DNA from: Sporanaerobium hydrogeniformans | GTDB lineage: Bacteria; Bacillota; Clostridia; Lachnospirales; Cellulosilyticaceae | Direction: 5' to 3' | NCBI RefSeq assembly: GCF_002735925.1 | Contig: NZ_PEDL01000018.1 | Span: 1 to 60,473, forward strand | DNA length: 60,473 nucleotides | Part shown: piece after piece, positions 6,319-30,168 of the stretch | Layout: every line of letters starts with the position of its first letter | Numbering within the stretch: position 1 is the first letter of the stretch | Made by a program: the position numbers and the translations under genes | Notes under the pieces: model-generated | Seen by the model: the letters and a program-made list of their open reading frames with translations, nothing else | Told to the model about the DNA's origin: nothing | Databases searched by the model: none

Positions 6319-6319
6319 A

Positions 6320-7540: not shown

Positions 7541-7542
7541 TT

Positions 7543-7567: not shown

Positions 7568-7591
7568 AAATTTATGAAGGGTGGTGAGAAT

Positions 7592-8177: not shown

Positions 8178-8179
8178 TT

Positions 8180-9731: not shown

Positions 9732-9753
9732 GTATTAGAAAGGAGATTGCAAT

Positions 9754-10122
9754 ATGTCTATTGTAAAATGTATGCCAGTAGAACCTATTGTTTTGAAATT
9801 TAATGATGGTACAATCCTTAAATGCTATATAAACATAAAAGCAATAGGATTGCTTATAGCAGAATTTGGTGATTTTGAAAATGTAGTTAAACAAGCAGAA
9901 GAGGAGCCTTTTACATTCTATGCAAAGCTTTTATATGCTGGCATAAAGGTAAATAAAACTAGTTTTACACTAGAAGAAGCTGAGTCAATAATCTGCTCAA
10001 ATTGTGGGAATCTAATTGAGGAATTGACAGATGCTTACATACGTTGTTGTGGAGATGTAGGTGGAGAAGATTTCTCAAAAAAATATATAGCCAAGATAGA
10101 GGAATATCTAGCAGAAAAGTAG
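9754..10122 (+). CDS. Tail assembly chaperone, short (gpG-like) form
   Basis: A 122-residue helical protein starting 11 bases after AAAGGAG. It sits between tail tube and tape measure, where long-tailed phages encode the chaperone that keeps the tape measure soluble. The N-terminal half is mixed strand/helix (EPIVLKFNDGTILKCYINIKAIGLLIAEFG); the C-terminal part is acidic. An in-frame A AAA AAA heptamer at 10077-10083, with a long hairpin after it, allows part of the ribosomes to shift into the -1 frame and make a longer gpGT-like form. Confidence 0.85.
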   Translation: MSIVKCMPVEPIVLKFNDGTILKCYINIKAIGLLIAEFGDFENVVKQAEEEPFTFYAKLLYAGIKVNKTSFTLEEAESIICSNCGNLIEELTDAYIRCCGDVGGEDFSKKYIAKIEEYLAEK

Positions 10123-10154
10123 ATTTCAATCTAGATACTCTATTCTTTGGCTAT
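10077..10154 (+). promoter_or_regulatory. Programmed -1 frameshift signal: slippery heptamer plus long hairpin
   Basis: A AAA AAA (10077-10083) is in the correct zero-frame register (TCA AAA AAA TAT). Three bases later an extended stem begins: ATAGCCAA (10087-10094) with TTGGCTAT (10147-10154), GATAGAG (10095-10101) with CTCTATT (10138-10144), and TATCTAG (10105-10111) with CTAGATA (10131-10137). Only two small bulges interrupt 22 pairs. The zero-frame stop TAG (10120-10122) lies in the terminal loop. Confidence 0.85.
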
Positions 10155-10301
10155 TGCATAATGTTAAAAAGACCAGTGGATGAATTTTTCAAATCAACCC
10201 TATCACACGTTTACAATGTGCTTGAACAATATAAAAACTTAATGTGTGGTGATGAAGAAACAGAAACGCAATGTGAAGATATGATAGATTTCCTAGCGTA
10301 G
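10083..10301 (+). CDS. -1 frame extension of the tail chaperone (gpT-like part of the fusion)
   Basis: The -1 frame stays open from the slippery heptamer to TAG/TAA at 10301 and encodes 72 residues after the shift (IYSQDRG...FFKSTLSHVYNVLEQYKNLM...DMIDFLA). Joined to residues 1-110 of the short form this gives a 182-residue fusion. The extension has no ribosome site or convincing start of its own; its internal ATG codons are poorly placed. The frame relation (zero frame minus one) matches the heptamer exactly. This is standard biology for the tail genes of long-tailed phages, here inferred from sequence. Confidence 0.82.
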   Translation: MYSQDRGISSRKVDFNLDTLFFGYCIMLKRPVDEFFKSTLSHVYNVLEQYKNLMCGDEETETQCEDMIDFLA

Positions 10302-10315
10302 AGAAAGGAGGAAAT

Positions 10316-14397: not shown

Positions 14398-15433
14398 GAA
14401 GGAATCCTATATCTTTGAGTTACTTGACTATCAAGATAATCATAAAACCTACCTCAAAAACTGTAGGAGTTTTAAGTTAGATTACAGTTCGCTAGATAGT
14501 ATTAAGGGAAAGGCTAGTATTACTATGACGGATGATAGTCAAATTAATTTTTTAACGGATAGAATAAAAATAACAATGCAAATAGACACCATGGGAATGA
14601 GATTTTTATTTCCTTTAGGTGTCTTTCTTATGTCTAGTCCTAGTGCTAATCGTAATGGCGATACAAAAGAATTAAGCACAGATGTGCGTGATGTACAGAT
14701 GTATGACAAGCTATATATCCTATATAATGATCCAGTGCTAGATGAACATATAATAATTAATGGGACTAGCATAGACAACGAAATAGCTAGACTACTAGGT
14801 ACACATTTATACAATATACCAACAAGTGGTAGGTTTACTACAATAGATAAGGTCTTTCCGGTAGGTACTAGAAAGCTAGAGATTATCAATTATTTACTTG
14901 ATGTAATTAATTATCATAGTCTTTGCGTAGATGGTGATGGAATGTACTATGCCTACCCTTATATAAGACCAGATGAACGTTCTATAGATATTGAGTATCT
15001 TAGTACAAAAAACAACGCTTTAGAGGTACAATTTCAAGACGAACTAGATATATTCAACATCCCTAATATTTTCTTTTTTACCACCAATAACGCAGATGGC
15101 ACAAACTACAGTTATGTCTATACTAATAGCAACCCTGATAGCCCTACAAGTACCGTAAGCAGACACATGAATATAGGCAGCGAAGTGCAGACAGTAGATG
15201 ATTGTAATAGCCTAGACGACCTTATCACTAAGGCTAAGAATTATGCTAGCGGAGTAACAACTAAGTATAGGCATATTAAGATTAATACAATGATAATGCC
15301 TATACATGGATATCTTAACTGCGTACTGGTTCAAAATGAAAAATATAATGGCAAGACAATAGAGACAAGCTGGGGCATAGATAGTCAGGCTAAAAGTATG
15401 TACCACAACTTAAGAGAGGCGGTGGCTATATAG
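14351..15433 (+). CDS. Tail-tip/baseplate hub-like protein (Tal N-terminal type)
   Basis: A 360-residue protein in the position of the tail-associated hub. It begins LLTQSGRKESYIFELLDY and contains NCRSFKLDYSSLDSIKGKASITMTDD and DLYVR-like hub strands, with a long C-terminal beta region. No peptidase or lysozyme domain is visible, so the enzymatic part may be absent or replaced by the SGNH hydrolase downstream. TTG 14351 is chosen because AAGGAGGGA lies 6 bases upstream. It overlaps the previous gene by 47 bases and the next by one (TAGTG). Confidence 0.65.
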   Translation: MKLNSYLLDLLTQSGRKESYIFELLDYQDNHKTYLKNCRSFKLDYSSLDSIKGKASITMTDDSQINFLTDRIKITMQIDTMGMRFLFPLGVFLMSSPSANRNGDTKELSTDVRDVQMYDKLYILYNDPVLDEHIIINGTSIDNEIARLLGTHLYNIPTSGRFTTIDKVFPVGTRKLEIINYLLDVINYHSLCVDGDGMYYAYPYIRPDERSIDIEYLSTKNNALEVQFQDELDIFNIPNIFFFTTNNADGTNYSYVYTNSNPDSPTSTVSRHMNIGSEVQTVDDCNSLDDLITKAKNYASGVTTKYRHIKINTMIMPIHGYLNCVLVQNEKYNGKTIETSWGIDSQAKSMYHNLREAVAI

Positions 15434-15624
15434 TGGTAATTGGAGAAATTAGATTTGGTAAGGCAACAGAGGTCGCATCTAGTGGTGTTAAGGTTATATT
15501 TCCAACGCAAACACTACCTAGTAATATATATTATAAAAAGTATAAGCATGTTACTGTTAATGTAAATGATACAGTAGCGATGAAATGGACTGGAAACACC
15601 TATATATGCGAGGGGGTGATATAG
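15433..15624 (+). CDS. Small tail-module protein of unknown function
   Basis: A 63-residue, beta-rich protein (MVIGEIRFGKATEVASSGVKVIFP...NVNDTVAMKW) between the hub gene and the SGNH hydrolase. Start GTG and stop TAG each overlap the neighbours by one base, so it is a genuine member of the operon. The pattern recalls a small OB- or knot-like tail accessory, but I do not recognise it. It may help attach the hydrolase to the hub. Confidence 0.65.
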   Translation: MVIGEIRFGKATEVASSGVKVIFPTQTLPSNIYYKKYKHVTVNVNDTVAMKWTGNTYICEGVI

Positions 15625-16835
15625 TGGGTTTAAAACAATATTTTGGAGATATATTGCTCCATAAAATACTTAAGGTAAATTTGCCTACAGGTAGAGTAGC
15701 AGGAGATCATTTATACTTTACTAAGGACTCTAATAGTAAATATAGTATGTATGTTACAGATCAAGATGGTAGCTTAAAAGAATGTACATATAATAGTGAG
15801 TTAGATGATAAAATCAATATTTTAAACAATAAAAATTTATTAGCTAAAGCACTACTTAAAATTAATACTGGACAGATGTGTAAAATTTGTTGCTACGGAG
15901 ATAGTGTTACTCATGGGTATAATGCAACAACACCTTATACTACAGTATTACAAGAGAAATACAGAAAAATAACACACAATGACAATATTACAGTAGTAAA
16001 CTGTGGACACGATAACTGGACTAGCAATAATGGGCTTATTGGAATAGATGAAGTAATGGAGCATAGTCCCGAAGTTTGTATTTTGATGTTTGGTATAAAT
16101 GATGCTAATACTAACATTTCATTAGATACTTATTATAGTAATGTGTCAAAAATGTGCGACATATTAAACGGATTGGGCGTGGCAGTAATATTAATGACTT
16201 CTAATCCTATATTTAAACTCAATCTATCATTTAAACTTAAAGCCTATGTGGATTGCATAAGAGAAATTGCTTTAAAAAAATCGCTATGTTTAATAGATAT
16301 AAATGAAATTTTTAACGATTTATTTATGAGAAAAATAGCAATTCCTCTTGCTTTGATTCCAGACGAAATACATCCCAACAATCTAGGACTTAGTTATATT
16401 GCAGATAATGCTATAGCTACCATGCAATCACTTTTGAAAGTTAGAGAGGCATCATATTTTGCTTTTTATAACAACTCAGATGTAAAAACAGACATTACAA
16501 ATAACTATTCCGATACTGGCATGACTTGTCTTAAAAACTATTACTATATGCCGTCATATGGTACATATTTTGTATTTCCGTTTTTTATAGATAAATTAAC
16601 ATCAATTCTAAGTTTAGAAACATTAAAATTTACAAATTGTGCATCTTACAATGTTAGAATTGATGGAGAAATCGTTAAAGAAGTAAATGGCTATAGTGCG
16701 AACTTGACAAAAAACGTACAAGAACAAATTGCTACAGTTGGCTATGGTTTGCATTTTCTAGAAGTATTGCAAAATGATAAAACTACAACATCTACAGGAA
16801 CTAATTTTCATTTGTGTGCATTGATGACAAATTGA
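15624..16835 (+). CDS. Tail-associated SGNH/GDSL-family hydrolase (probable surface-glycan esterase)
   Basis: A 403-residue protein with all SGNH blocks: GDS with nucleophile Ser94, Gly128 in the NCGHDN block, GIND with Asn159, and DEIH with Asp247/His250. Residues 1-85 form a separate N-terminal part with TGRVAGDHLYFT, a common attachment motif of phage tail fibres. Residues about 275-403 are beta-rich and could bind glycan. SGNH enzymes remove acetyl or acyl groups; on a tail they would trim host wall polymers during adsorption. GTG 15624 is preferred because GAGGGGGTG lies upstream. The substrate is unknown. Confidence 0.85.
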   Translation: MGLKQYFGDILLHKILKVNLPTGRVAGDHLYFTKDSNSKYSMYVTDQDGSLKECTYNSELDDKINILNNKNLLAKALLKINTGQMCKICCYGDSVTHGYNATTPYTTVLQEKYRKITHNDNITVVNCGHDNWTSNNGLIGIDEVMEHSPEVCILMFGINDANTNISLDTYYSNVSKMCDILNGLGVAVILMTSNPIFKLNLSFKLKAYVDCIREIALKKSLCLIDINEIFNDLFMRKIAIPLALIPDEIHPNNLGLSYIADNAIATMQSLLKVREASYFAFYNNSDVKTDITNNYSDTGMTCLKNYYYMPSYGTYFVFPFFIDKLTSILSLETLKFTNCASYNVRIDGEIVKEVNGYSANLTKNVQEQIATVGYGLHFLEVLQNDKTTTSTGTNFHLCALMTN

Positions 16836-16989
16836 CGATTCGCAACAACAAACGAAGATTTTATCTAAATCGAATGAGGAGCTTACAGCAGAGAATGAAC
16901 TGCTAAAAGCACAGGTAGAAGCTCTTAGTACTCAATCAACATTTCTAGAAGATTGTTTACTAGAAGTAGGTCAGATAGTCTATGCTTAA
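16831..16989 (+). pseudogene. Small coiled-coil phage gene without a usable start
   Basis: The frame from 16831 to TAA 16987-16989 encodes 52 residues in coiled-coil style (SNEELTAENELLKAQVEAL...FLEDCLLEVGQIVYA). This is the usual small protein found between tail fibre and lysis genes in Clostridia phages. There is no ATG, GTG or TTG in this frame; only ATT 16831 overlaps the hydrolase stop. A TTG at 16832 is one base out of frame. The simplest reading is a one-base indel just after the start, or else an unusual ATT start. Confidence 0.55.
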
Positions 16990-17038
16990 AGCCATAAAGC
17001 ATTTACTAATAAAAATTATAATCAAAGGAGATGATGGG

Positions 17039-17194
17039 ATGATGGCTATGTTATTTGCAAGTAAGGTTATATTAGGAAGTATTACATGGGAGCAGGTACC
17101 AAGGCTACTTAAACAACCAGTAGCTGATATTCTTATTGAGAATGGTTGTGAGTTTTTAATTACAGAGGAAGAATACTTACCACAGCAAGCATAA
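17039..17194 (+). CDS. Small phage protein, CD1375-like
   Basis: A 51-residue protein: MAMLFASKVILGSITWEQVPRLL... ending in EEEYLPQQA. Short proteins with a hydrophobic start, a 'VP.LL' helix and a conserved ILI tail occupy this position in many Firmicute phages, between tail fibre and holin; they resemble the CD1375-type family. No function is known. AAGGAG (17025-17030) lies 8 bases before ATG 17039. Confidence 0.7.
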   Translation: MMAMLFASKVILGSITWEQVPRLLKQPVADILIENGCEFLITEEEYLPQQA

Positions 17195-17204
17195 TAATTA
17201 AAGC

Positions 17205-17248
17205 AAGGCATAGGAGAGCAGCTTAATAGGCTGTATTTTTTATGCCTT
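17205..17248 (+). terminator. Possible terminator between tail and lysis genes
   Basis: AAGGCATA (17205-17212) can pair with TATGCCTT (17241-17248). Inside, CAGC (17219-17222) can pair with GCTG (17230-17233), followed by a T-run. The two foldings compete, so the effect is uncertain. Confidence 0.4.
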
Positions 17249-17290
17249 ATTTTATTAACAAACTAATTAAAATCCAAGGAGGAAACAAAA

Positions 17291-17545
17291 ATGAGTTATG
17301 GATATTTAGATAAATACGGTATTTTACATGTGGTAAGCGACGAGGGAACAGCAAAGACCTACGCTAAGAATGGTAAGTATGTAAAGACGGATGTAGCAAA
17401 TAGAGGCGGATATCCTTGCTTGCTCAAAGAGGTTGTAGTTTATTCACAGTCTGAAGCGTACATAGAAGGCAATAGGGGTGATGGAAAGAAAATAAGGCTA
17501 TCAGAGTGCAAGGATATTGAAGCCTTATACAAACAATTAATATAG
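17291..17545 (+). CDS. Hypothetical phage protein upstream of the holin
   Basis: An 84-residue soluble protein with AAGGAGG well placed before the ATG. It begins MSYGYLDKYGILHVVSDEGTAKTYAKNGKYVKTD and is mostly beta/turn with many Tyr, Gly and Lys residues. It lies between the CD1375-like gene and the holin, so it could be a lysis accessory or a late passenger gene. I do not recognise a family. Confidence 0.6.
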   Translation: MSYGYLDKYGILHVVSDEGTAKTYAKNGKYVKTDVANRGGYPCLLKEVVVYSQSEAYIEGNRGDGKKIRLSECKDIEALYKQLI

Positions 17546-17556
17546 GAGGTGTGAGC

Positions 17557-17988
17557 ATGGAAAAATATTTTAATAATTTTTCGTTGGTACTAGGTGCTAT
17601 TGGTGGATTTTCTGCAGGAATGTTGGGAGGGTGGGACATACTCTTAAAAACAATGATTATTTTAATTATTTTAGATTATGTCACTGGGATTTTAAAAGGT
17701 ATATATAATAAAGAGTTGTCTAGTGCAGTAGGTTATAAGGGTATTATAAAAAAGGTAATGATTCTTATTTTAATAGCCCTTGCCTATGCCCTACAAAGTA
17801 GCATAGATACGTCTTTACCACTTAGAGAGATTGTTAATACCTTCTTTATAGCAAATGAAGGTATTAGCATCTTAGAAAACGCTGTAGGTTGTGGGTTGCC
17901 TATTCCGGCGAAACTCAAAGAATTACTAATACAGCTAAGAGGAGATGATGAAGATGCAGATACAGCAAGCATTGCTAACCATAAATAA
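17557..17988 (+). CDS. Phage holin (toxin-secretion/phage-lysis holin family)
   Basis: A 143-residue membrane protein. Hydrophobic segments at about 8-27, 28-48, 63-80 and possibly 83-105 (FSLVLGAIGGFSAGMLGG; TMIILIILDYVTGILKGI; KVMILILIALAYAL) fit the holin-4/TcdE-like family, with the diagnostic LDYVTGI motif. It forms the membrane lesion that releases the amidase. ATG 17557 lies 6 bases from AGGAGGT; the GTG at 17551 touches that site. Its last 35 bases overlap the amidase gene, as usual for lysis cassettes. Confidence 0.9.
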   Translation: MEKYFNNFSLVLGAIGGFSAGMLGGWDILLKTMIILIILDYVTGILKGIYNKELSSAVGYKGIIKKVMILILIALAYALQSSIDTSLPLREIVNTFFIANEGISILENAVGCGLPIPAKLKELLIQLRGDDEDADTASIANHK

Positions 17989-18724
17989 ATACAGTAGACC
18001 AGGTACAAAAATAGGACCTATAAAAAATATTGTGGTGCACTGGGTAGGAAATGCTGGTAGTAAGGGGATAAGTAATAGAAACTATTTTGAGAGCCTTAAA
18101 GATAAAAAGACATATGCTAGTAGTCACTATATCGTAGGGCTAGACGGTGAGGTTATACTTTGTGTGCCTGAGACAGAGATAGCCTACCATGCTACAGTGG
18201 CAAATAGTAGAGCAATAGGCATAGAGTGTTGCCACCCTGATTGGGAAGGTCAGTTTAATCACAAAACCTATACTAGCCTTATAGAGTTACTAGCAGATTT
18301 ATGTAAGAGATATAATCTTAATCCTCAAATAGATATCTTACGACATTACGATATAACAGGTAAAGAGTGTCCAAAGTACTATGTAAAAAATAATCTAGCA
18401 TGGACAAAGCTAAAAAATGATGTAGCTGTAGAACTAAAAAAACTAGATGTAGATCAAGAACTCATATCTGCTATAAATAAACTTATAGCAGAAGGTGTAA
18501 TGATGAACGCTTGCAACTGGAACTCTATAGATAAGATGGATTTAAGGTATGCAGAAACACTCATACTTCGTATAGGAGCATTGTTTGGCTTTAGTGACTA
18601 TAAAGCTACCATAGATTACTTACAAGGCAAGGAAGTCATTACAGACCGTACGTTATGGGATAGGAAAGAGTTTGTGCCTAAGTACATTAGAACAATATTA
18701 ATAAGAGTATCAAAATTAGTTTAG
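17954..18724 (+). CDS. Endolysin: N-acetylmuramoyl-L-alanine amidase (Amidase_2 family)
   Basis: A 256-residue lysin. The N-terminal zinc amidase domain (about 1-160) has His29 in IVVHWVG, His131 in LRHYDITGKECP, catalytic Lys137 and zinc ligand Cys139; the spacing matches T7 lysozyme (H122, K128, C130). The C-terminal region (about 165-256) is a distinct helical part, probably for wall binding. It cuts the lactyl-amide bond of peptidoglycan after holin opening. ATG 17954 is preferred since AGAGGAG ends 9 bases before it. It overlaps the holin gene and is followed by a terminator. Confidence 0.92.
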   Translation: MQIQQALLTINKYSRPGTKIGPIKNIVVHWVGNAGSKGISNRNYFESLKDKKTYASSHYIVGLDGEVILCVPETEIAYHATVANSRAIGIECCHPDWEGQFNHKTYTSLIELLADLCKRYNLNPQIDILRHYDITGKECPKYYVKNNLAWTKLKNDVAVELKKLDVDQELISAINKLIAEGVMMNACNWNSIDKMDLRYAETLILRIGALFGFSDYKATIDYLQGKEVITDRTLWDRKEFVPKYIRTILIRVSKLV

Positions 18725-20925: not shown

Positions 20926-22947
20926 ATGAAGAAGAACGGAAAAAATGAAAAGAAAGGCATAACAAGTATTAAATTTAAATTAATAGCCCTTATTATCCCA
21001 CTTGTAATTTTAACTATAAGCATATTGTTAAATATAACTTACAAAAAATCAAGAGAGATGATAGTTAATTATGCACAGCAATTAGTACAAGCCCTTACAG
21101 TATCTAATGAGCATGAGATTGAAACTTGGTCACAGGATATTATATCAGGTTTAAATCAGATAAAAAATACTATTGATGCTATGGAATTAAAGGATGATGA
21201 ATTACTCGGTTATTTAAAAACAACAATGAATAAAAATGATAGTTATAAGAACGGTGTGTACATAGGAGAAGCAAATAATAAAATAGTTGATCCTTCAGGT
21301 TGGATTCCAGATAAGAATTATGTTGTGACAGAAAGGGATTGGTATAAAGAAGGATTACAAAATGAAGAAAAATTTAATTTTGGAAAAGCCTACTTAGATG
21401 AAGATACTGGTGAATACGTCATAAGTGCAACTGCTAAGCTTAAATCAATAGAAGGAATAAGTCGTGTGGCAGGAGCAGATGTTTCTTTAAAAACAATTTC
21501 TGATATTGTGGGTTCAAAAAGCATATTAAATACAGGCCGATTATTTCTTGTAGATAGTGCAAATAATAAAATTATTGCAATAGGAGAAGAAGAACTTATT
21601 CATACAGAATTTAATGATAACAATCAAAATGAACTAATTAGGGATATTGCAAAGCACACAAGTATGAGTGAAAAGGGTATTTTAGAAGTAACATCAGGAG
21701 GAGATACCTATTCAATATGTGTTCAAACTATTAATCATACACCATGGAAATTAATAGGTTACATATCCTATGAAGAAGTACTTGCTTCTCTTAAGGGATT
21801 TCAAAAAGCTGTATTAGGTATTTTTATTTTAACCTTAATTCTATTAATAGTATTAATAGAAAGGACTATTCATCATATAATAAAGCCTATAAAAAGCTTA
21901 AACCATACAATTCATAGAATTACAGAGGGAGACTTTACTAGTGAGGTTAAAGTCAAGGGAAATGATGAAATAGCAACAATAGGTAGAAGTATGAAAAGAT
22001 TCATTGAAACCATGCGTGAAATCATCCGTGAGGTAAATAAAATGTCAGATAAGCTTGAACAGCAAGCAGAAAATAGTAGCCATGTGGCAATAGAATTATA
22101 TGAATCAGCAGAAGTGCAGTCTACTTCGATGTCGGAACTAAATCAGACAGTGGATGAATTAGCTCGGGCAGTTACAGAGGTAGCTGAGAATACCTCCACA
22201 CTTTCTATGGTAGTTGCAGAAACAGATCAAAGTGGTCAAGAGGCAAGTGAAAAAATGAAGAATACAGTATCCTTATCTGAAAAGGGAAAAGCAGATATGG
22301 GACAAGTCTCCTTAGCAGTAAAAAATCTTGATGAAACAGTAGAAAAGCTTATAGAGTCTGTTGAAGAGGTAGATAACTCCAGTGAAAAGATTAATGGTAT
22401 TGTAGAATTAATTGGAAATATTGCGAACCAGACAAATTTATTAGCTTTAAACGCTGCAATAGAGGCAGCAAGGGCAGGAGAAGCAGGAAGAGGCTTTTCA
22501 GTAGTAGCAGAAGAAATAAGAAAGTTAGCAGAGACAAGTCAACAATCTGTGAAAAGTATTACTCATCTTACCAGTAATATTAAAAACCTAGTGAATAATA
22601 CCATTGATAAATCACAGCAAAGTGCCAAAAGTATTAAGCAAAGTATAGAGTTAGTAGCTACAGCAGAAGATACTTATGGAGTTATTTATAGCATGTTAAA
22701 TGAAACAAATGCCATTGTTCAAGAAATGATTCAAAAGGTAAGTAAAGTAGATGAGGTAGCCAGTTCCGTAGCAGCAATTACACAAGAACAGTCAGCCGCG
22801 GCGGAACAAATACTTGCAACATCAGAGAATCTCTCCAATCATGCAAAAAAAGTTACTAATAATAGTTATAGAGTAGAAAAAGATGCAGCTGAATTATCAG
22901 AAACAGCAGAAAATCTAAACAATCAAATGAAACTCTTTAAGATTTAA
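20926..22947 (+). CDS. Methyl-accepting chemotaxis protein with dCache sensor
   Basis: A 673-residue transmembrane chemoreceptor. Membrane helices lie at about 17-38 and 294-314; the outer part (about 40-290) is a double Cache domain with the ERDWYKEG...[18 protein letters not shown] pattern that often binds amino acids or small acids. A HAMP domain (about 315-370) and the signalling domain follow, with the conserved hairpin [33 protein letters not shown]. It would talk to CheW/CheA. AAGGAG precedes the ATG. It is the first intact host gene after the prophage and is monocistronic, with a strong terminator. Confidence 0.93.
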
Positions 22948-23016: not shown

Positions 23017-23132
23017 GTTTATTGTATAAAGTGCAATAGGGAACTATTTATATAAATCTATGAATAGTTATATTTTACAATATAAAATTTTAAAAAGTTA
23101 AAAATATACTATGAATATTAAAAATGTACGGT

Positions 23133-23160
23133 TTGTTTTGTATAAAACATCTAGTATAAT
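23133..23160 (+). promoter_or_regulatory. Promoter of the TRAP transporter operon
   Basis: TTGTTT (23133-23138), a 16-base spacer and TATAAT (23155-23160). A small inverted repeat, GTCGT-AAGT-ACGAC (23172-23185), lies about 12-25 bases after the -10 box and could be an operator or a 5' hairpin. The linked two-component system is the obvious candidate regulator. Confidence 0.65.
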
Positions 23161-23218: not shown

Positions 23219-24304
23219 ATGAATAAAAAAATAGTAGCAACACTTTTAAGCGCATTAATGGTGGCTTCCATGTCAGGTTGTGGATTAAAATCTCCAGAGG
23301 CACCAGCAGCACCAGCTGCATCAACTGCACCAGCAAAGGAAGAGGCAAAAGCAGAAGAACCAAAGAAGGAAGATACAGCAGCAACACCAGAGGTTACTCT
23401 TGTATATGCAGAAGTTAACCCACTAGATACCATTGTTGGGCAAACAGGTACTGCATTTAAAGAAAAAGTTGAAGAACTTTCAGGTGGAAAAATTAAAATT
23501 GATGTTCAAGCAAGTGGTGTATTAGGTTCAGAAAATGATGTACTTGATACCATGCTTGGTGGTGGCGGAACTATTGATATGTCTCGTATCTCCGCATTTG
23601 CTCTTACAAGCTATGGCGGAGCAAAATCAAAGCTTCTTTCCATCCCTTATACATTCGTAAGTCGTGATCATTTTTGGAATTTTGCAACATCAGACTTAGC
23701 TCCAGAATTCCTTCTTGAACCACATGAAAATGGCAGTGGTGTAAGAGGTTTATTCTATGGGGAAGAAGGATTCCGTCACTTCTTTACAGTTAAACCAGTT
23801 AACACAATGGAAGATTTAAAAGGTATGAAGATTCGTGTATCCAATGACCCTGTTATGAATGGTATGGTAGAAGGACTTGGTGCTTCTCCAACAGTTGTAT
23901 CTTTTGGTGAACTTTACTCAGCATTACAAACAGGTGTTGTAGATGGTGCTGAACAACCTATTGCTAACTACAAATCAAATGCATTTCCAGAAGTTGCTCC
24001 AAACTTAATTCTTGATGGTCATACACTTGGGGCTATTCAAGTTATTATTACAGATGAAGCTTGGGATAAACTTACAGAAGAACAACAAAATATCCTTGTA
24101 GAAGCTGGTAAATATGCTTCAGAATTTAATAGAAAGATTTCACAAGAAGCTGAAAACAAAGTGCTTGAAGAGTTAAAAGCAGATGGAGTAAATGTAGTAG
24201 AAGTTAAAGATATCACACCATGGCAAGAAGCATGTAAAGATGTTATTACTTCTTCAACAGCAGATAATGCTGAACTTTATCAACAAATTCTTGATATGAA
24301 GTAA
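23219..24304 (+). CDS. dctP: TRAP transporter solute-binding lipoprotein DctP
   Basis: A 361-residue lipoprotein: signal peptide with lipobox MSGC (Cys21), an Ala/Pro/Glu-rich linker (about 25-58), then the DctP fold. Key family features are Arg206 in LKGMKIRVSNDPVMNGMVEGLGASP, which usually binds the substrate carboxylate, and ALQTGVVDGAEQPIANY. It captures an organic acid outside the membrane and hands it to DctQM. Likely ligand: C4-dicarboxylate or a sugar acid; not decided by the sequence. Ribosome site AGGAGG. A hairpin after the stop probably keeps DctP in excess over the membrane subunits. Confidence 0.93.
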   Translation: MNKKIVATLLSALMVASMSGCGLKSPEAPAAPAASTAPAKEEAKAEEPKKEDTAATPEVTLVYAEVNPLDTIVGQTGTAFKEKVEELSGGKIKIDVQASGVLGSENDVLDTMLGGGGTIDMSRISAFALTSYGGAKSKLLSIPYTFVSRDHFWNFATSDLAPEFLLEPHENGSGVRGLFYGEEGFRHFFTVKPVNTMEDLKGMKIRVSNDPVMNGMVEGLGASPTVVSFGELYSALQTGVVDGAEQPIANYKSNAFPEVAPNLILDGHTLGAIQVIITDEAWDKLTEEQQNILVEAGKYASEFNRKISQEAENKVLEELKADGVNVVEVKDITPWQEACKDVITSSTADNAELYQQILDMK

Positions 24305-24414: not shown

Positions 24415-24942
24415 ATGCCTAAGATTTTTGAAGCAATTGATAAAATAAAACCGGCATATGATGTAGCTTACAAATTTGTACTTTTTGTATGTAAGATACT
24501 TCTAGTGATTGATATTTTAATCACTACTATGGCTGTAGCAGGTAGATACATAGCTTTTATTCCTGACCCAGCATGGAGTGAAGAAATTGTTTTAACATGT
24601 ATGGCGTATATGGCGGTTTTATCTGCAGCTTTAGCTATTAGAAGAAATGCCCATATTCGTATGACCGCATTTGATAAATATTTACCTAAGAAATTCGTAA
24701 AAACTTTAGACATTATTGCAGACGTAGCTGTTCTAGCACTAGCAGTAGTGATGCTGGTAGTAGGCTGGAACTATGCAATGCAAATTGGTGCAAAGGGAAG
24801 CTATGTAAGTATGCCAAGTGTTTCTCGGTTTTGGATGTATTTCCCTGTTCCAGTTGCAGGTATGGCAATGATAATTTTTGAAATAGAATCTATCTATAAT
24901 CACATAAAGGCATTTTTTATAGAGGAGGGGGATAACGCATGA
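24415..24942 (+). CDS. dctQ: TRAP transporter small membrane subunit DctQ
   Basis: A 175-residue protein with four hydrophobic segments (about 20-42, 52-74, 96-118, 138-158). The WSEEIVLTCMAYMAVLSAALAIRRNAHIRM segment is typical of DctQ. It couples the sodium-driven DctM to DctP. A clear AAGGAGG lies before the ATG. The end overlaps dctM by 4 bases (ATGA). Confidence 0.92.
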   Translation: MPKIFEAIDKIKPAYDVAYKFVLFVCKILLVIDILITTMAVAGRYIAFIPDPAWSEEIVLTCMAYMAVLSAALAIRRNAHIRMTAFDKYLPKKFVKTLDIIADVAVLALAVVMLVVGWNYAMQIGAKGSYVSMPSVSRFWMYFPVPVAGMAMIIFEIESIYNHIKAFFIEEGDNA

Positions 24943-26231
24943 GTGCTGAGAGTTTAGCGATATTAGTTTTGCTAGGTAGCTTTTTTATAATGATATTTTT
25001 AAGATTTCCTATTGCTTATGCAGTAGCTCTTTCATCTTTATTTTGTCTTTTGTACCAAGGACTTCCACTTACAACTATTTGTCAACAGATGGTAAAAGGA
25101 ATTAGTTCTTTTAGTCTTATGGCAGTACCTTTCTTTATTACCATGGGATGTTTAATGGGTTCAGGTGGTATCTCTGAAAAGCTCATTGCATTAGCTAATG
25201 CATGTGTTGGTTGGATGCGTGGAGGAATGGCAATGGTTAATATCGTTGCATCTTATTTCTTTGGAGGTATTTCTGGTTCTGCTTCTGCAGATACCGCTTC
25301 TCTTGGTACTATTTTAATTCCTATGATGGTAGAACAAGGTTATGATGATGATTTTTCAACAGCTGTTACCATTACTTCATCTTGTGAAGGACTTTTAGTT
25401 CCTCCTAGTCATAATATGGTTATTTATGCGACAACAGCAGGTGGTATTTCAGTAGGCAGTCTTTTCCTTGCAGGCTATATACCTGGTGCATTACTTGCAT
25501 TAAGTTTAATGATTGGTTCTTATATTATTTCTGTTAAGAGAAATTATCCAAAAGGTGAGAAATTTAGTCTTAAAAACTTATTAAAACAATTAAGTATATC
25601 TTTCTGGGCACTTGCAGCAGTTTTAATTGTTGTATTCGGTGTAGTTGGTGGGGTATTTACAGCTACAGAGTCGGCAGCTATTGCAGTTATTTATAGTTTG
25701 ATTGTTAGTGTATTTATTTATAAAGGGCTTGATTGGAAAGGTGTTTGGAGAGTGTTGGGAGATTGTGTGGACACACTTTCTATTGTATTGATCCTTATCT
25801 CAACCTCAAGTATTTTTGGTTATTGTTTAACCCGTTTACACGTACCTGAGTTAGCAGCTAATTGGATTATTGGTGTAACAGATAACCCAATTCTTTTAGC
25901 ATTACTCTTAAACCTTATTCTTTTAGTACTTGGTTGTATTATGGATATGGCTCCTATTATCTTGATTGCCACACCTATTTTACTTCCAATTGCAACCTCA
26001 ATTGGTATTGATCCTATTCAATTTGGAATCATGGTTGTATTAAACTGTGGTATTGGTCTTTTAACACCACCGGTTGGAGCCGTACTCTTTATAGGTTCCG
26101 CCATTGCTAAAGTACCAATGGAACGTGTTGTAAAAGCTACATTGCCATTCTATGTTTGTATGATTATTACACTTCTACTGATTACCTTTATTCCAGCTAT
26201 TAGTTTATGGCTTCCAGCAGTGCTGGGGTAA
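24939..26231 (+). CDS. dctM: TRAP transporter large membrane subunit DctM
   Basis: A 430-residue, very hydrophobic protein with about 12 predicted membrane helices and typical DctM segments: FFGGISGSASADTASLG, TSSCEGLLVPPSHNM, and GIGLLTPPVGAVLF. It carries the solute with sodium ions across the inner membrane. Start overlaps dctQ. The YcxB-like gene starts eight bases after its stop. Confidence 0.94.
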   Translation: MSAESLAILVLLGSFFIMIFLRFPIAYAVALSSLFCLLYQGLPLTTICQQMVKGISSFSLMAVPFFITMGCLMGSGGISEKLIALANACVGWMRGGMAMVNIVASYFFGGISGSASADTASLGTILIPMMVEQGYDDDFSTAVTITSSCEGLLVPPSHNMVIYATTAGGISVGSLFLAGYIPGALLALSLMIGSYIISVKRNYPKGEKFSLKNLLKQLSISFWALAAVLIVVFGVVGGVFTATESAAIAVIYSLIVSVFIYKGLDWKGVWRVLGDCVDTLSIVLILISTSSIFGYCLTRLHVPELAANWIIGVTDNPILLALLLNLILLVLGCIMDMAPIILIATPILLPIATSIGIDPIQFGIMVVLNCGIGLLTPPVGAVLFIGSAIAKVPMERVVKATLPFYVCMIITLLLITFIPAISLWLPAVLG

Positions 26232-26239
26232 GAAGTGAT

Positions 26240-26710
26240 ATGAAATATAAATTTTCTTATCAAACAACTCCTTTTGATTTCTGGCAGCTGTCTATGTACT
26301 ATACTTATGGTTCTATAGTAGGTGTGTGTAATATTCTGTTTACCGTGGCGATGTTTATACTTACTCTAAAATTTTGGAGTAATGTAAATGATTTTGTAAA
26401 AATACTTTTAATTATCGCATGTAGTTTATTTACAGTTATTCAACCTTTAGTGGTTTATAGAAAAGCCAAAAAACAGGTAGCAACTCTTCCAAAAGATATG
26501 GAAATAGGCTTTGATGAACGAGGGATTCATGTAAAAGCAGGAAATCAAAGCTCTTATTTAAAATGGAATACTATAAAGCGTATATCGAAGAAGCCTAGTA
26601 TGCTTGTAATCTTTTCTAATACCACACATGGTTTTATTTTAACAAATAAAACATTGGGAAAGCAAAAAGAAGAATTTTATACTTATGTAGTTTCAAAAAT
26701 GAAAAAATAA
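26240..26710 (+). CDS. YcxB-like membrane protein
   Basis: A 156-residue protein with two membrane helices (about 35-55 and 60-80) and a C-terminal domain typical of the YcxB-like family: EIGFDERGIHVKAGNQSSYLKWNTIKRISKKPSMLVIFSN. Function of the family is unknown. It follows dctM after eight bases and precedes the operon terminator, so it is probably co-transcribed. ATG 26240 is used because the longer frame from 26207 lies inside dctM; its ribosome site (TAAGAAG) is weak. Confidence 0.75.
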   Translation: MKYKFSYQTTPFDFWQLSMYYTYGSIVGVCNILFTVAMFILTLKFWSNVNDFVKILLIIACSLFTVIQPLVVYRKAKKQVATLPKDMEIGFDERGIHVKAGNQSSYLKWNTIKRISKKPSMLVIFSNTTHGFILTNKTLGKQKEEFYTYVVSKMKK

Positions 26711-26732
26711 TATTTAATTATTAATAGAAAAT

Positions 26733-26776
26733 AAAGTTGTATTTACATAACATGTACTTACAGCTTTATTTTTTTT
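26733..26776 (+). terminator. Terminator of the TRAP operon
   Basis: AAAGTTGTA (26733-26741) pairs with TACAGCTTT (26759-26767, one G-U), followed by ATTTTTTTT. It separates the transporter genes from the sensor promoter directly after. Confidence 0.8.
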
Positions 26777-26804
26777 GTGAAAAAGTACTGAAATATGTTA
26801 TAAT
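26775..26804 (+). promoter_or_regulatory. Promoter of the sensor-regulator operon
   Basis: TTGTGA (26775-26780), an 18-base spacer and TATAAT (26799-26804); the kinase start is 32 bases downstream. It begins where the TRAP terminator ends. Confidence 0.6.
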
Positions 26805-26835: not shown

Positions 26836-28338
26836 ATGAAAAAAAAGACTTGGAGATATAAGTGGCATGATACATGGCTGTCTTTAACCATTAAGAAAAA
26901 AATTAGTTTTTTTACAGGTGTTGTATTTCTTATTATTTTATTATCAGTAATGTTTGATGTTTGGGTAGTAAACTTTTCTTTAAATGATTTTAGGGTTATT
27001 TTAGAAGATAATGCAAGAAGTAATGATTTTATGGAAGCAATAGAAAATGAAAGTAATTGCTTTGAAGTCTATGTAAAAAACCCCATGGATGAGAACCTAG
27101 AAAAATTAGAAGAAGCCTATAAAGAAACGCGTTTAGCTATTTCAAGACTACCTTATGACTCATCTATAGGAGCTTATCGGTATGCAAAAACATGGTCTAT
27201 CCGAAATAGCTACACAGTCTATGAGGAGAAAAGAGATCTTCTCTTAAAAATGGATGAAGAAAATCCAGGTTATATTCAAGAACTATATAAAGTTTATAAT
27301 ATGCAGAGCTTTTTACAGGATTATGCAAGAGCACTTATGCGCTATACCCTTGAAGAAGGAACGGAAACCTATATTAAAAAGATACCTAATTTAAGAAGGG
27401 TTCCTATAGTAGTTTTCATTTTTGGTGTTTTATTACTTTGGGGAATTATTAGTTTAGCACGCCTGATGAATAAAACAATTATTTTGCCCATTGTCAATTT
27501 AGTAAGTGCATCCAAGAGGATTGCCACAAATGATTTCTTTGTAGAAGATGTAAAGGTTGAAAACAAGGATGAAATGGGAGAATTAGTAACAGCTTTTAAT
27601 AAAATGAAATATGCGACAGGGCAGTATATTATGGCGCTAGAAGAAAAAAGAGAAATGCTTCATTTACTCCATAAAGAAGAGCTAGAAAAACTAGAGGTAG
27701 AAAAGCGTCTAGAAGCTACAAATTTAGAGCTATTAAAGAATCAAATCAATCCTCATTTTTTATTTAATACATTGAATGTAATAGGTGGTATGGCAAATTT
27801 AGAGGAAGCAAAAATAACTGAAAAGATGACAAAGGCGCTAAGTTCTTTGTTTCGTTATAATTTAAAAACTCCAGAGGCTGAAGTAGTGCTAGCACAAGAA
27901 CTTAAGATTGCAAGAGATTATATGTATTTGCAACAAATGCGCTTTGGCAGTCGTATTCGTTATGAAATACAATGTAAATTAGATACAGATAAAGTAAAAG
28001 TCCCCACTTTTTCTTTTCAACCCTTAATAGAAAATGCTGTTATACACGGATTATCTAAAAAAGAAGAGGGAGGAAAGGTGAGTATACGTATTTGGCGGCA
28101 AGGATACTATGTGATGATTACTGTTGTGGATACTGGTGTGGGAATGACTCAAGAGGAATTAGAAAAGCTAAGGAGTGCCTTTAAAGAAGGTGCTACTGAA
28201 CGGATTGGGATTGGCTTAGGGAATATTTATAAAAGGGTACATGGTATGTACCAAGATGGGGAAGTGGAAGTTTTTAGTAAGAAAAATAAAGGAACAGCTG
28301 TACGAGTAAAAATTCCATATAGAGAGCAGGAGGAATAA
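26836..28338 (+). CDS. Membrane sensor histidine kinase, YesM type
   Basis: A 500-residue kinase with membrane helices at about 22-46 and 188-207, an outer domain of about 140 residues without a recognised fold, a HAMP domain (about 208-262), a coiled coil, and the His_kinase domain with NPHFLFN (His307). The C-terminal ATPase has QPLIENAVIHG (N box), DTGVGM (G1) and GIGLGNIYKR (G2). It would phosphorylate the response regulator encoded one base after its stop. ATG 26836 fits GGAAGG upstream. The neighbours suggest it senses the solute of the TRAP system. Confidence 0.92.
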   Translation: MKKKTWRYKWHDTWLSLTIKKKISFFTGVVFLIILLSVMFDVWVVNFSLNDFRVILEDNARSNDFMEAIENESNCFEVYVKNPMDENLEKLEEAYKETRLAISRLPYDSSIGAYRYAKTWSIRNSYTVYEEKRDLLLKMDEENPGYIQELYKVYNMQSFLQDYARALMRYTLEEGTETYIKKIPNLRRVPIVVFIFGVLLLWGIISLARLMNKTIILPIVNLVSASKRIATNDFFVEDVKVENKDEMGELVTAFNKMKYATGQYIMALEEKREMLHLLHKEELEKLEVEKRLEATNLELLKNQINPHFLFNTLNVIGGMANLEEAKITEKMTKALSSLFRYNLKTPEAEVVLAQELKIARDYMYLQQMRFGSRIRYEIQCKLDTDKVKVPTFSFQPLIENAVIHGLSKKEEGGKVSIRIWRQGYYVMITVVDTGVGMTQEELEKLRSAFKEGATERIGIGLGNIYKRVHGMYQDGEVEVFSKKNKGTAVRVKIPYREQEE

Positions 28339-28339
28339 G

Positions 28340-29122
28340 ATGTATCGCGTATTAATTGCAGATGATGAACCAATAGAAAGGGTAGTGGTAAGTAGGACGC
28401 TTCACAAGTATTTTCAAGATCAACTAGAAATTATTCAAGCAGTAAACGGAAGGGAAGCTATTGAGAAATGTCAGGAGCAAAGATGCCAAATTGTGATTTT
28501 GGACGTTGAAATGCCTGGTATCAATGGCTTGGAGGCAGCAGAGCAAATAAGGCGATATGACAAAGAGTGTAGCATTATTTTTTTAACAGCCTTTGATTAT
28601 TTTACATATGCAAAAAAAGCAATTACCGTAAGGGCACTGGATTATTTATTAAAACCAAGTTCGGAAGAAGAACTTATAGCTGTAGTAGAGGAAGGTATGC
28701 GATTGGCTGATGCACAGAAGGAAGATGGTGTTTCAGAAATAGCTGTGGCCAATGAAGCTTTTGTAACAGAAGGTGAAAAAATAGAATGTATTCGTATGAA
28801 TATAGTACAAGAAAAGATTCTTGATTTTATTCAAAATCACTATACAGAAGATATTTCCCTACAAGATGTTGCAAGAGCAATGAATTATTCGGATGCCTAT
28901 TTCTGTAAGCTATTTAAACAATGCTTTGAAAAAAGCTTTACCACTTATCTTTCTGAATTCAGAATAGAGAAAGCGAAGCAATTACTAGTTGATGTGACAA
29001 TTAATGTAAAGGAAATTAGTGATAAGGTGGGGTATAGGGATTCCAATTATTTTGCTAAAGTATTTAAACGAAGAGAAGGAGTTACTCCAAGTGAATACCG
29101 CATCCTAGCTTTAGGAAAATAA
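28340..29122 (+). CDS. AraC-type response regulator, YesN type
   Basis: A 260-residue protein: receiver domain (1-120) with DD at 8-9, phospho-acceptor Asp55 in VILDVEMPG, Thr and Lys106-like residues (LLKPSS), and an AraC helix-turn-helix domain (about 160-258; SDAYFCKLFKQ...YRDSNYFAKVFKRREGVTPSEYR). It is encoded with the kinase and should control dctPQM. GCAGGAGG precedes the ATG. Confidence 0.93.
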   Translation: MYRVLIADDEPIERVVVSRTLHKYFQDQLEIIQAVNGREAIEKCQEQRCQIVILDVEMPGINGLEAAEQIRRYDKECSIIFLTAFDYFTYAKKAITVRALDYLLKPSSEEELIAVVEEGMRLADAQKEDGVSEIAVANEAFVTEGEKIECIRMNIVQEKILDFIQNHYTEDISLQDVARAMNYSDAYFCKLFKQCFEKSFTTYLSEFRIEKAKQLLVDVTINVKEISDKVGYRDSNYFAKVFKRREGVTPSEYRILALGK

Positions 29123-29160
29123 TAGAAGCTCAATCATTCAGAAAGTGGCAAGGTGATTAG

Positions 29161-30168
29161 ATGAAAAAGGGAATAATAAGACTAATAGTATGTCTTTCTA
29201 TAGTTGGATTATTTGTAAGTTGTGTTGGAAAAAAACAAGCAGGAGTTAAAGCACCTGAATTTGTGTTTTTCTATGCAGAGAATCAACCAGAGGATTATCC
29301 TACTACGTTAGGAGCCTATAAGTTTGCAGAACTAGTAGAAGAAAGAACAGAGGGGCGCATAAAAATTATTGTACAAGCTGAAAGTGCTTTAGGCTATGAA
29401 AAAGATGTTATTAAACAGCTTCAGTTTGGTGGAATTGATTTTGCACGTATTTCTTTATCTCAATTAGCAGAGGTGGTTCAGCTATTTAATGTATTACAAA
29501 TGCCCTATTTGTATAGGAACTCCAAGCATATGTGGGAAGTACTAGATGGTGAGATTGGGGAAGATTTTTTGGATGCTGCAGAAGCGTTTGATATGGTAGG
29601 GCTCTCTTGGTATGATGCCGGTGCTCGAAACTTTTATAACTCTGTAAGGCCAATTACTTCATTAGAGGATATAAAGGGATTAAAAATCCGTGTACAAGAA
29701 TCAGAAGTAATGGCACACATGGTAGAAGCATTAGGCGCAACAGCAGTACCACTTGATTATAGTGATGTTTATTCAGGTTTGCAACAAAGGAGTATTGATG
29801 GTGCAGAGAATAACTGGCCGTCCTATGAATCCATGGATCATTATGAAGTGGCTAAATATTATACAATAGATGAACATACGCGTGTACCAGAATTGCAGTT
29901 ATGTGCGAAAGCAACATGGGATAAACTTTCGCTAGAAGATCAAAAAATTATCCGTGAATGCGCCAAGGAATCTGCTTTATATGAAAGAAAACTGTGGGTA
30001 GAAAGAGAAAAGCAATCCGAAAAAATTGCTATTGCAAATGGTACGCAGGTTACAGTTTTATCAGCAGAAGAAAAGGCAAAATTTCAGGCTGCTGTAGCAA
30101 AGGTATATGAGAAATACTGCATCGAATATATGGATATTATAGAGGCCATTATTGCAACAGGGAAATGA
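29161..30168 (+). CDS. Orphan DctP-like solute-binding lipoprotein in the sensor operon
   Basis: A 335-residue lipoprotein (lipobox FVSC, Cys21) with the DctP fold and the carboxylate-binding Arg177 in IKGLKIRVQESEVMAHMVEALGA, plus GLQQRSIDGAENNWPSYES. No second set of DctQM genes follows. Encoded 38 bases after the regulator, it is in the position of a ligand-binding co-receptor for the kinase, as known for several systems where a solute-binding protein activates a sensor. It could also be a second binding protein for the upstream transporter. It differs clearly from the upstream DctP, including lack of the Ala/Pro linker. Confidence 0.9.
   Translation: MKKGIIRLIVCLSIVGLFVSCVGKKQAGVKAPEFVFFYAENQPEDYPTTLGAYKFAELVEERTEGRIKIIVQAESALGYEKDVIKQLQFGGIDFARISLSQLAEVVQLFNVLQMPYLYRNSKHMWEVLDGEIGEDFLDAAEAFDMVGLSWYDAGARNFYNSVRPITSLEDIKGLKIRVQESEVMAHMVEALGATAVPLDYSDVYSGLQQRSIDGAENNWPSYESMDHYEVAKYYTIDEHTRVPELQLCAKATWDKLSLEDQKIIRECAKESALYERKLWVEREKQSEKIAIANGTQVTVLSAEEKAKFQAAVAKVYEKYCIEYMDIIEAIIATGK

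Follow-up and report, generated by a model that had tools for sequence, protein, structure and literature searches.

Introduction

Solute sensing by a kinase together with an extracellular binding protein has been described in several bacteria, and the locus analysed here is of this known kind, as represented by XylFII-LytS, CuaDSR and the DctB-DctS pair of Bacillus subtilis. In the xylose sensor XylFII-LytS (LytR) of Clostridium beijerinckii, XylFII is reportedly a sugar-type (Peripla_BP) receptor linked to an ABC importer, and it is said to be a co-receptor that is needed for activation or improves it. XylFII is reported to dock on LytS and to serve as a dedicated extracellular binding protein of this kinase (PMC9769921). 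The window, by which we mean the whole stretch of 60,473 nucleotides of Sporanaerobium hydrogeniformans DNA that was analysed, resembles this system in having a LytS-family kinase with a related four-helix bundle. As in the XylFII-LytS type, a binding protein, here called DctPs, is encoded with the kinase and apart from the transport receptor. The difference is that the receptor here belongs to the TRAP DctP family and the importer is a TRAP transporter, replaced by an ABC importer in relatives.

The cellobiose system CuaDSR of Ruminiclostridium cellulolyticum likewise has a permease-less second receptor with a kinase and regulator beside an importer, organised as in the window in a separate sensor operon, and the outer part of its kinase binds the sensor receptor CuaD and not the transport receptor CuaA (PMC10384115). 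In contrast to the window, CuaDSR has an ABC-type receptor, and the published model of its kinase's outer part shows beta-sheet sandwiches carried by long helices instead of a simple four-helix bundle (PMC10384115).

For B. subtilis, a match to PF03480 was returned in a control search, with the gene behind the match not displayed. We take its DctB to belong to the DctP family, and the DctB-DctS-DctR system reportedly concerns C4-dicarboxylates, with the carrier DctA and with a kinase and regulator of another class than those found here. An accessory co-receptor is reported to work with the kinase in this system (with DctA), as it would here (PMC6978683). Furthermore, in the citrate system BctC-BctE (BctD) of Bordetella pertussis, the receptor of a tripartite transporter reportedly binds to the kinase and increases the expression of the operon for that transporter; unlike what is proposed for DctPs, this single TctC-family receptor of a Gram-negative organism serves both transport and signalling (PMC5812351, PMC9602780). 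No TRAP-type co-sensor with a LytS-type kinase was found in the literature searched, most of it outside subscription journals. What is new in the present locus is a TRAP-class receptor joined to a LytS-type kinase and portable between transporter classes.

Organisation of the locus

The genes for kinase, regulator and DctPs lie on the + strand downstream of a complete dctPQM operon (ORF map), with the following features:

23097..23131, + strand: putative response-regulator operator, direct repeat TTAAAAATRTAC with a period of 20 bp, upstream of dctP
23219..24304, + strand: dctP, transport receptor, lipoprotein (DctPt); Pfam DctP, E 5e-64
24415..24942, + strand: dctQ, small TRAP permease subunit; Pfam DctQ, E 2e-29
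24939..26231, + strand: dctM, large TRAP permease subunit; Pfam DctM, E 2e-117
26240..26710, + strand: YcxB-like membrane protein; Pfam YcxB, E 5e-9
26726..26774, + strand: terminator-like A/T-rich hairpin between YcxB and kinase; RNA fold
26775..26804, + strand: candidate promoter of the sensor operon: TTGTGA-18-TATAAT, a TG preceding the second hexamer; consensus scan 10/12
26836..28338, + strand: sensor histidine kinase, 500 aa from the ATG at 26836; HAMP, His_kinase (PF06580) and HATPase_c (Pfam)
28340..29122, + strand: response regulator; Response_reg E 2e-26, AraC-type HTH E 7e-21 (Pfam)
29161..30168, + strand: DctPs, permease-less DctP-family receptor, proposed co-sensor; PF03480, E 8e-83

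Kinase and regulator genes are separated by 1 bp, regulator and DctPs genes by 38 bp, and a penicillin-binding protein gene follows next, at 30302. The genome holds eight DctP genes together with seven full-scoring DctM genes and one 26-bit match; seven of the eight DctP genes stand directly upstream of dctQ, DctPs being the sole exception. Open reading frames and Pfam matches thus agree with the earlier note, which had placed a second DctP lipoprotein without permease genes just behind kinase and regulator. The YcxB-like gene accompanies the transporter in many loci, as the loci maps show.

A promoter of its own probably drives the sensor operon. The segment 26708-26782 folds as RNA at -19.6 kcal/mol (z -5.3), and the 3' arm of the hairpin within it ends in a T run that is mostly paired with A; the consensus scan did not list this hairpin. 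The promoter-like site behind it is weak evidence, because 21 such sites occur in the region against 31.6 in shuffles.

The receptor and its candidate ligand

DctPs belongs to the DctP family by Pfam (278.5 bits against a cut-off of 23.4) and shares 34% identity with the transport DctP (96 of 279 aligned columns). Its structure model (pLDDT 93) finds TRAP receptors as best structural matches, with Z up to 40.7; the EFI structures 4x8r, 4n8y, 4p1l, 4pf8 and 4ovr were among the structures met in this search. Unlike a receptor of the XylFII type, DctPs gave no Peripla_BP match in the Pfam scan. At its N-terminus a hydrophobic stretch is followed by ...GLFVSC21, a lipobox that is acceptable but not textbook owing to the Phe at -3. 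A simple rule left the lipobox unrecognised in 18 of the 28 clade I sensors, and 17 of those 18 have a strongly hydrophobic start; the clade I receptor looks as if it may be turning into a fixed, membrane-tethered subunit of the kinase.

The glucuronate site of STM3169 includes N35, Q36, E74, R150, R170 and N210 (PMC7660916). Matched by spacing only, N41, Q42, E80, R156, R177 and N217 of DctPs correspond to it, and D237 of STM3169 is E244 in DctPs. These six residues are found in 27, 25, 27, 28, 27 and 27 of the 28 clade I sensors, respectively, and clade II sensors mostly differ from DctPs at positions 41 and 42. Among other DctP proteins, R156, R177 and N217 are common (40/40, 40/40 and 36/40), and N41, Q42 and E80 occur in 14/40, 18/40 and 21/40.

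UxaC or KduI/KduD genes stand beside five of 36 cassette loci, and uronate genes are also present at three non-cassette loci; UxaC is widespread in the order, occurring in 129 of 196 genomes. Pfam found no uronate gene among the 20 window proteins scanned, and the organism has two UxaC genes outside the window. From the pocket residues and some of these neighbours, a hexuronate such as D-glucuronate or D-galacturonate appears the favoured candidate for the DctPs signal, with a confidence slightly reduced by the lack of specificity at three of the six pocket positions. A hexuronate is also more probable than a C4-dicarboxylate on this sequence evidence.

The sensor domain of the kinase

The kinase carries a LytS-type four-helix-bundle sensor at about residues 37-190, N-terminal to HAMP. 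The single sensor sequence of the window gave no LytS match, its best PDB matches (E 0.002-0.003) being two uncharacterised chains. When 30 sensor domains were combined into a profile, 5xsj_L and 5xsd_L, both LytS chains, came up at E 4e-8, with the next PDB match at 0.1, and a profile of the 22 clade I sensor domains only found LytS at E 4e-5, with the next match at 0.11. The kinase model (pLDDT 82) superposes on 5xsj_L over 119 of 122 residues (rmsd 1.8, Z 14.9), but other four-helix bundles match it alike, 4k0d even higher (Z 16.0) and MCP2201 at 14.2, in a structural search that was dominated by the kinase core. Four-helix bundles readily match one another, and values of about 14 are attained even by helical models that have no clear counterpart. 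Profile and structural matches relate the sensor domain of the kinase to the one in LytS, on which XylFII docks, in agreement with the prediction that the kinase would have a sensor of the type known to dock binding proteins.

Co-evolution of receptor and kinase

Across 29 loci, mirror distances of the kinase core correlate with those of DctPs at r 0.935 and with those of DctPt at 0.439, whereas DctM is followed by DctPt (0.987) and less by DctPs (0.551). L046 was left out of this test because its DctM is cut, and the distant DctPs genes L141 and L142 were used for L123 and L124. The correlation of kinase core and DctPs given DctPt is 0.92, a value reached in 0 of 2000 permutations, against -0.15 for kinase core and DctPt given DctPs. 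Four loci of the same family (L043, L044, L045 and L048) have nearly identical transporters (distances 0.17-0.18 and 0.12) together with distant kinase sensors (2.2-2.9) and distant DctPs (0.93-0.99). Within clade I alone, the transport DctP tracks the kinase too (0.885 against 0.951 for DctPs), and the co-evolution may in part be linkage because DctPs adjoins the regulator in most loci. Given the kinase core, the sensor domain correlates with DctPs at 0.39 but with the receiver at 0.51, and in clade I at 0.45 with DctPs against 0.55 with the DNA-binding domain. When both regulator domains are also given, the values are 0.24 for DctPs (clade I 0.31) and 0.11 for DctPt (clade I 0.09).

A DctP tree, built by a quick method with SH-aLRT support, places DctPs inside a 28-row clade composed entirely of sensors, with no DctP directly upstream of dctQ inside it. 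Nine sensor labels were assigned by hand, the near-copies L128 and L139 were omitted, and L072 forms a very long branch. Mirror distances, tree and the loci and genomes without DctQM all assign the receptor to the kinase rather than to the permease, as had been predicted. It is the DctP at 23219, and not DctPs, that is encoded and evolves with its own DctQM in the manner of a TRAP receptor.

Distribution of the cassette

An order-wide scan that scored three candidates per genome found the kinase at E<=1e-70 in 29 of 392 genomes, covering 11 genera and 4 families. Loci will have been missed, since the order-wide and class-wide scans took few candidates per genome and drew part of the group. Stops flagged in the kinases of two genomes (G245 and G172) were dismissed, as the reading frames proved open with 506 and 505 aa. 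In 27 of the 29 loci the kinase has a DctPs-type gene at a distance of no more than about 9 kb; in the remaining two this distance is 35 and 42 kb. The cassette content is kept in those 27 loci through five gene orders and across 11 genera and 4 families.

Five related genomes carry the cassette of kinase, regulator and DctPs together with an ABC ATPase, a permease and a separate Peripla_BP_4 receptor. Full-scoring DctM is absent from all five; one of them (G143) has no match, and the four g74 genomes reach at most 32 bits. By these computations, kinase, regulator and DctPs have co-evolved and been co-transferred independently of the transporter. TRAP-class receptor, LytS-type kinase and AraC-type regulator likely make up, with the operator, a sensing cassette that is portable and has become linked to unrelated importers of the TRAP and ABC types. 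If so, a TRAP receptor survives in some genomes purely as a sensor, without a TRAP permease.

Predicted operator

The repeat upstream of dctP was first spotted by eye and was recovered by a mismatch-tolerant search; a standard repeat search did not report it. A TATAAT can be read at 23155-23160 behind it, and AraC-type activators sit next to weak -35 elements. The half-sites were picked by eye, and the matrix applied to each locus therefore excluded that locus and its nearest copies, while further members of genus g13 were retained. So scored, the window site reaches 32.2 bits (31.5 with the same-family L040 also left out), against 14.6 for the next site in the 60 kb and a maximum of 25.3 in 60 Markov-random 60-kb sequences. 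A pattern derived from these sites matched perfectly nowhere else in the genome. With at most one mismatch, TTAAAAATRTAC occurs at nine sites in the window against 3.7 expected, the mismatch-free ones being the two half-sites.

The scan, run without L072 and L126, placed the best site upstream of the transporter in all 22 clade I loci with a window-type TRAP operon and in all five ABC loci, L116 being tied with an opposite-strand site in the same gap. L136 scored 14.0 and L116 14.3 (half-sites poorly registered), and L115, L129 and L137 scored 12.7-15.0. L130, which has a clade I sensor and another transporter, lacks a site upstream of that transporter. In the eight clade II loci no score exceeded 14.3 bits, and dctP was preceded by a site in L044 alone, a weak one of 8.0. 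The conserved direct repeat is thus where a probable operator of the regulator had been predicted, upstream of dctPQM.

Proposed mechanism and alternative explanations

We consider it likely that the locus encodes a three-component solute sensor, with DctPs as the dedicated co-sensor of the membrane kinase, controlling dctPQM. DctPs, a membrane-anchored binding protein of the TRAP family, would capture an acidic sugar outside the cell and, by analogy with XylFII on LytS, would dock on the LytS/YesM-type kinase at its four-helix-bundle sensor domain. The kinase would phosphorylate the AraC-type regulator, and we infer that the latter turns dctPQM on by binding to the direct repeat at 23097-23131, through activation rather than release of inhibition. 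The separation of sensing from transport that the earlier note proposed gains support from the sensor-domain relation, the co-evolution, the ABC-linked cassettes and the operator.

Alternatively, DctPs might be a second receptor feeding the same DctQM, with another solute or affinity, and owe its place behind the regulator to operon packing. It does keep the DctP fold with a conserved pocket, and transport-competent cousins exist, as seen from the single DctP of similar type between regulator and DctQM in L049, L134 and L135. However, DctPs is kept together with the kinase in genomes that have an ABC transporter with its own receptor as importer and no full-scoring DctM, its distances follow the kinase and not DctM, and its clade is free of receptors adjoining dctQ. 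As a main role, this reading is rejected on the ABC-linked loci, distances and tree, and is very improbable. A chance neighbourhood of an unrelated two-component system and a stray dctP gene has a practically negligible probability: both kinds of gene are numerous in these genomes, but the conserved content and an operator that follows the cassette lead to its rejection.

The signal could also be of opposite sign, ligand-free DctPs holding the kinase off and ligand releasing it in a CpxP-like manner, so that a dctPs deletion would be constitutively on. The anatomy would be the same and the data are silent on the sign; moreover, kinase and regulator of CuaDSR are reported still to respond to cellobiose without the receptor (PMC10384115). 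Since the nearest precedents CuaD, DctB and BctC are described as co-receptors needed for or improving activation, we hold an opposite sign to be improbable. Less remote, though still doubtful, is cross-induction, in which DctPs would report a solute other than the DctPQM cargo, for instance free hexuronate signalling uronate polymers. All 27 rows of the transport clade differ from DctPs at pocket positions 41, 42 and 217, and at least 26 of them at 244 as well, so the transport DctP may not carry the solute sensed by DctPs. On the other side, the same transport clade stands beside KduI/KduD or UxaC in L043, L048, L117 and L118, and elsewhere an ABC importer with a sugar-type receptor takes the transporter's place.

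Significance

The co-sensor reading of DctPs makes this family of loci a natural experiment on how a transport receptor becomes a sensor, as related genomes show single receptors between regulator and permease, tandem pairs, fully separated sensors and sensors outliving their transporter class. Now that probable candidates for ligand class, operator and docking domain have been named, the sugar-acid sensing route becomes directly testable. The analysis also speaks for not labelling DctP genes as transporters when they lie next to a kinase and lack a permease.

Locus and gene content

The sensor operon lies behind a TRAP transporter operon on the forward strand, and a candidate operator precedes the first transporter gene.

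23098-23129: candidate operator TTAAAAATATAC-N8-TTAAAAATGTAC, upstream of dctP
23219-24304, +: dctP, transport receptor (DctPt)
24415-24942, +: dctQ
24939-26231, +: dctM
26240-26710, +: YcxB-like membrane protein gene
26836-28338, +: histidine kinase
28340-29122, +: response regulator, AraC type
29161-30168, +: second DctP-family gene, the proposed co-sensor (DctPs)

The earlier note had described a second DctP gene directly after kinase and regulator and lacking permease genes of its own, and the open reading frames of 26836-30168 bear this out. DctPs shares 34% identity with DctPt and is the sole exception among the eight DctP genes of the genome, the other seven standing directly before dctQ; DctM yields seven full-scoring matches and one weak match. 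A hairpin (z -5.3) and a promoter-like site between the YcxB-like gene and the kinase suggest separate transcription of the sensor operon. A chemoreceptor gene with a dCache_1 sensor adjoins the module (20926-22947), as one does nearby in two relatives (L041:6205-8004, L122:4077-5876), and is possibly part of the same response. The phage-type genes further upstream (about 4460-18721; portal, minor tail protein and also an amidase) are a prophage or its remains.

Recurrence and gene order

In an order-wide scan with three candidates scored per genome, the kinase was matched at E<=1e-70 in 29/392 genomes, representing 11 genera and four families. The distance from the kinase to a DctPs-type gene is at most about 9 kb in 27 of these 29 genomes, and 35 and 42 kb in G341 and G376. 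The YcxB-like gene accompanies the module, and forms a two-gene pair with the distant DctPs in G376 and G341 (L141:9278-9781; L142:9343-9828); none appears in the maps of the ABC loci.

Gene orders of the cassette of kinase (HK), regulator (RR) and DctPs; P-Q-M, dctP-dctQ-dctM; L, mapped loci; G, genomes
P-Q-M-(YcxB)-HK-RR-DctPs: window, L040, L041, L109-L114, L117-L122 (no YcxB gene found in the maps of L117 and L118)
HK-RR-P-Q-M-YcxB-DctPs: L115, L129, L136, L137
HK-RR-DctPs-P-Q-M(-YcxB): L042-L048, L131 (M gene cut off in L046)
DctPs-HK-RR-P-Q-M: L130
HK-RR-ABC-DctPs: G108, G195, G261, G334 (genus g74), G143

In the last group, the genes after kinase and regulator encode, in this order, an ABC ATPase, a BPD_transp_2 permease, a Peripla_BP_4 receptor and DctPs, as assigned by Pfam in L127 and L116 and by matching ORF sizes and order in L125, L128 and L143; L143 has two additional ORFs following its regulator gene. 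Searched across whole genomes, DctM had no match in G143 (92% complete), whereas each g74 genome (99% complete) gave one or two; these score <=32 bits, against 320-406 bits for strong matches in other genomes, and although counted as over the Pfam cut-off they are interpreted as belonging to the wider transporter superfamily. G143 has one DctP gene and each g74 genome two, the second (L138:8264-9370, between RecQ- and SbcD-like genes; L139:8302-9408; L140:8649-9794) residing in genomes without full-scoring DctM.

Three further loci (L049, L134, L135) carry kinase and regulator, then a single DctP of similar type with DctQM, perhaps a dual-use ancestor state. At L053:8800-10760 a DctP gene overlaps that of a 322-aa protein with HAMP as the only domain found, which may be a truncated kinase or some other partner.

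Co-evolution of sensor and kinase

A tree of 110 of the 112 mapped DctP proteins was built by a quick method with SH-aLRT support. The label 'sensor position' required two changes on it versus 30.5 in shuffles, nine sensor labels (ABC loci, distant genes, L009, L130, L072) having been set by hand in the tree. A 28-row clade composed of sensors only (clade I, support 99) includes the window's DctPs, eight further sensors form clade II (99), and DctPt belongs to a separate 27-row clade (100).

The earlier note's separation of sensing from transport is supported by pairwise distances over 29 loci, in which DctPs follows the kinase core (0.935; DctPt 0.439) and DctPt follows DctM (0.987; DctPs-DctPt 0.518), and by the cassette standing also beside an ABC importer. 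The sensor domain correlates with DctPs at 0.890. The partial correlation of kinase core and DctPs given DctPt is 0.92 (0/2000 permutations as high), that of kinase core and DctPt given DctPs -0.15. This contrast comes mainly from cassette exchange between clades, because within clade I (22 loci) the kinase core correlates with both DctPt (0.885) and DctPs (0.951). Such exchange is evident within the family to which the window belongs, where L043, L044, L045 and L048 differ from the window by 0.17-0.18 in DctPt and 0.12 in DctM, versus 0.93-0.99 in DctPs and 2.2-2.9 in the kinase sensor. Beyond kinase core and both regulator domains, the sensor domain retains a modest partial correlation with DctPs (0.24; clade I 0.31) and a lower one with DctPt (0.11; 0.09). 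Given the kinase core alone, it reaches 0.51 with the receiver versus 0.39 with DctPs in the whole set, and 0.55 with the DNA-binding domain versus 0.45 in clade I.

By a simple rule, rough in that it rejects L141 but accepts the near-identical L142, accepts L117 and L119 doubtfully and takes L129 from an internal start, a lipobox is found in 10/28 clade I and 7/8 clade II sensors and in 47/52 and 12/12 transport proteins. Of the 18 clade I sensors that lack it, 17 have a hydrophobic stretch at the N-terminus; DctPs of the window carries Cys21.

Candidate operator

With a matrix from other loci, the window's site scores 32.2 bits, the next best in 60 kb 14.6, and the top in 60 Markov-random 60-kb sequences 25.3 (mean 13.1). 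When the genome was searched with a pattern derived from these sites, the window's site alone matched perfectly, and one further site had three mismatches. The locus-best site lies upstream of the transporter in 22/22 clade I loci with the window-type TRAP operon (12.7-37.5 bits) and 5/5 ABC loci (14.3-26.6 bits; L116 tied). L130 is an exception, and the sites of the eight clade II loci do not exceed 14.3 bits. This distribution suggests that the predicted operator travels with the regulator, not with the transporter. TATAAT follows the repeat at 23155-23160, and a poor -35 hexamer, read by eye, adjoins the second repeat, which would fit an activator. A second operator-like site occurs on the minus strand near the dctM end in L109:7504 (19.7 bits) and L113:7554 (16.3 bits).

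Sensor domain and ligand

The kinase was modelled with a mean pLDDT of 82; its outer part forms a four-helix bundle (helices 19-81, 85-103, 113-138, 146-230), whose long helices run on into the membrane and HAMP parts. In structural comparison, Z reached 16.0 for 4k0d, 14.9 for LytS in the XylFII-LytS complex 5xsj (rmsd 1.8 over 119/122 residues) and 14.2 for the MCP2201 domain, values that helical models can attain by chance. Sequence profiles offer an independent test of the LytS relation: 30 sensor domains retrieved 5xsj_L and 5xsd_L at E 4e-8, and the 22 of clade I at E 4e-5, the next matches lying at about 0.1 in both. These chains were not found with the window's single sequence as query, and Pfam 4HB_MCP_1 was matched by 2/26 kinases (best E 1e-4). 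In LytS, the bundle helices to which XylFII binds are H3 and H4, as stated in a paper on GlnX (PMC9769921).

Among solved structures, those closest to DctPs belong to TRAP receptors, for the most part from the EFI series (4x8r, E 7e-87); the same entries lead for DctPt at lower scores (4x8r, E 1e-39). The D-glucuronate site of STM3169, as given in PMC7660916, includes N35, Q36, E74, R150, R170 and N210, matched at offsets of 6-7 by N41, Q42, E80, R156, R177 and N217 of DctPs. Each is conserved in 25-28 of the 28 clade I sensors. Among 40 other DctP proteins, R156 (40), R177 (40) and N217 (36) are common to most, and N41 (14), Q42 (18) and E80 (21) less so; clade II keeps E80, R156, R177 and N217 in 8/8, mostly without N41 and Q42, and transport-clade DctP has V, N, E, R, R, Q. 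Five of the 36 cassette loci have uronate genes as neighbours, namely KduI with KduD (L043, L048, L131) and UxaC plus a PfkB kinase and one other gene that the two loci share (L117, L118); KduI or UxaC is present at three other loci too (L054, L058, L071). UxaC was found in 14/14 cassette genomes tested and also in 129/196 genomes of the order. The ligand of DctPs is thus likely a hexuronate, but not firmly so, since the pocket residues are partly general and UxaC is common across the order.

Relation to known systems

Judging from the LytS-type domain and gene content, the cassette would work like XylFII-LytS and CuaDSR, being of the same functional kind but with a TRAP-class receptor, whose docking is putative. 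The principle of a co-sensing DctP-type receptor is not new, because DctB of B. subtilis, a binding protein of the DctP family, is an earlier example. As far as the literature searched shows, the new elements are that a TRAP-class receptor is paired with a sensor domain of the LytS type, that its pocket is of the hexuronate type, and that the cassette has been exchanged between importers of the TRAP and ABC classes.
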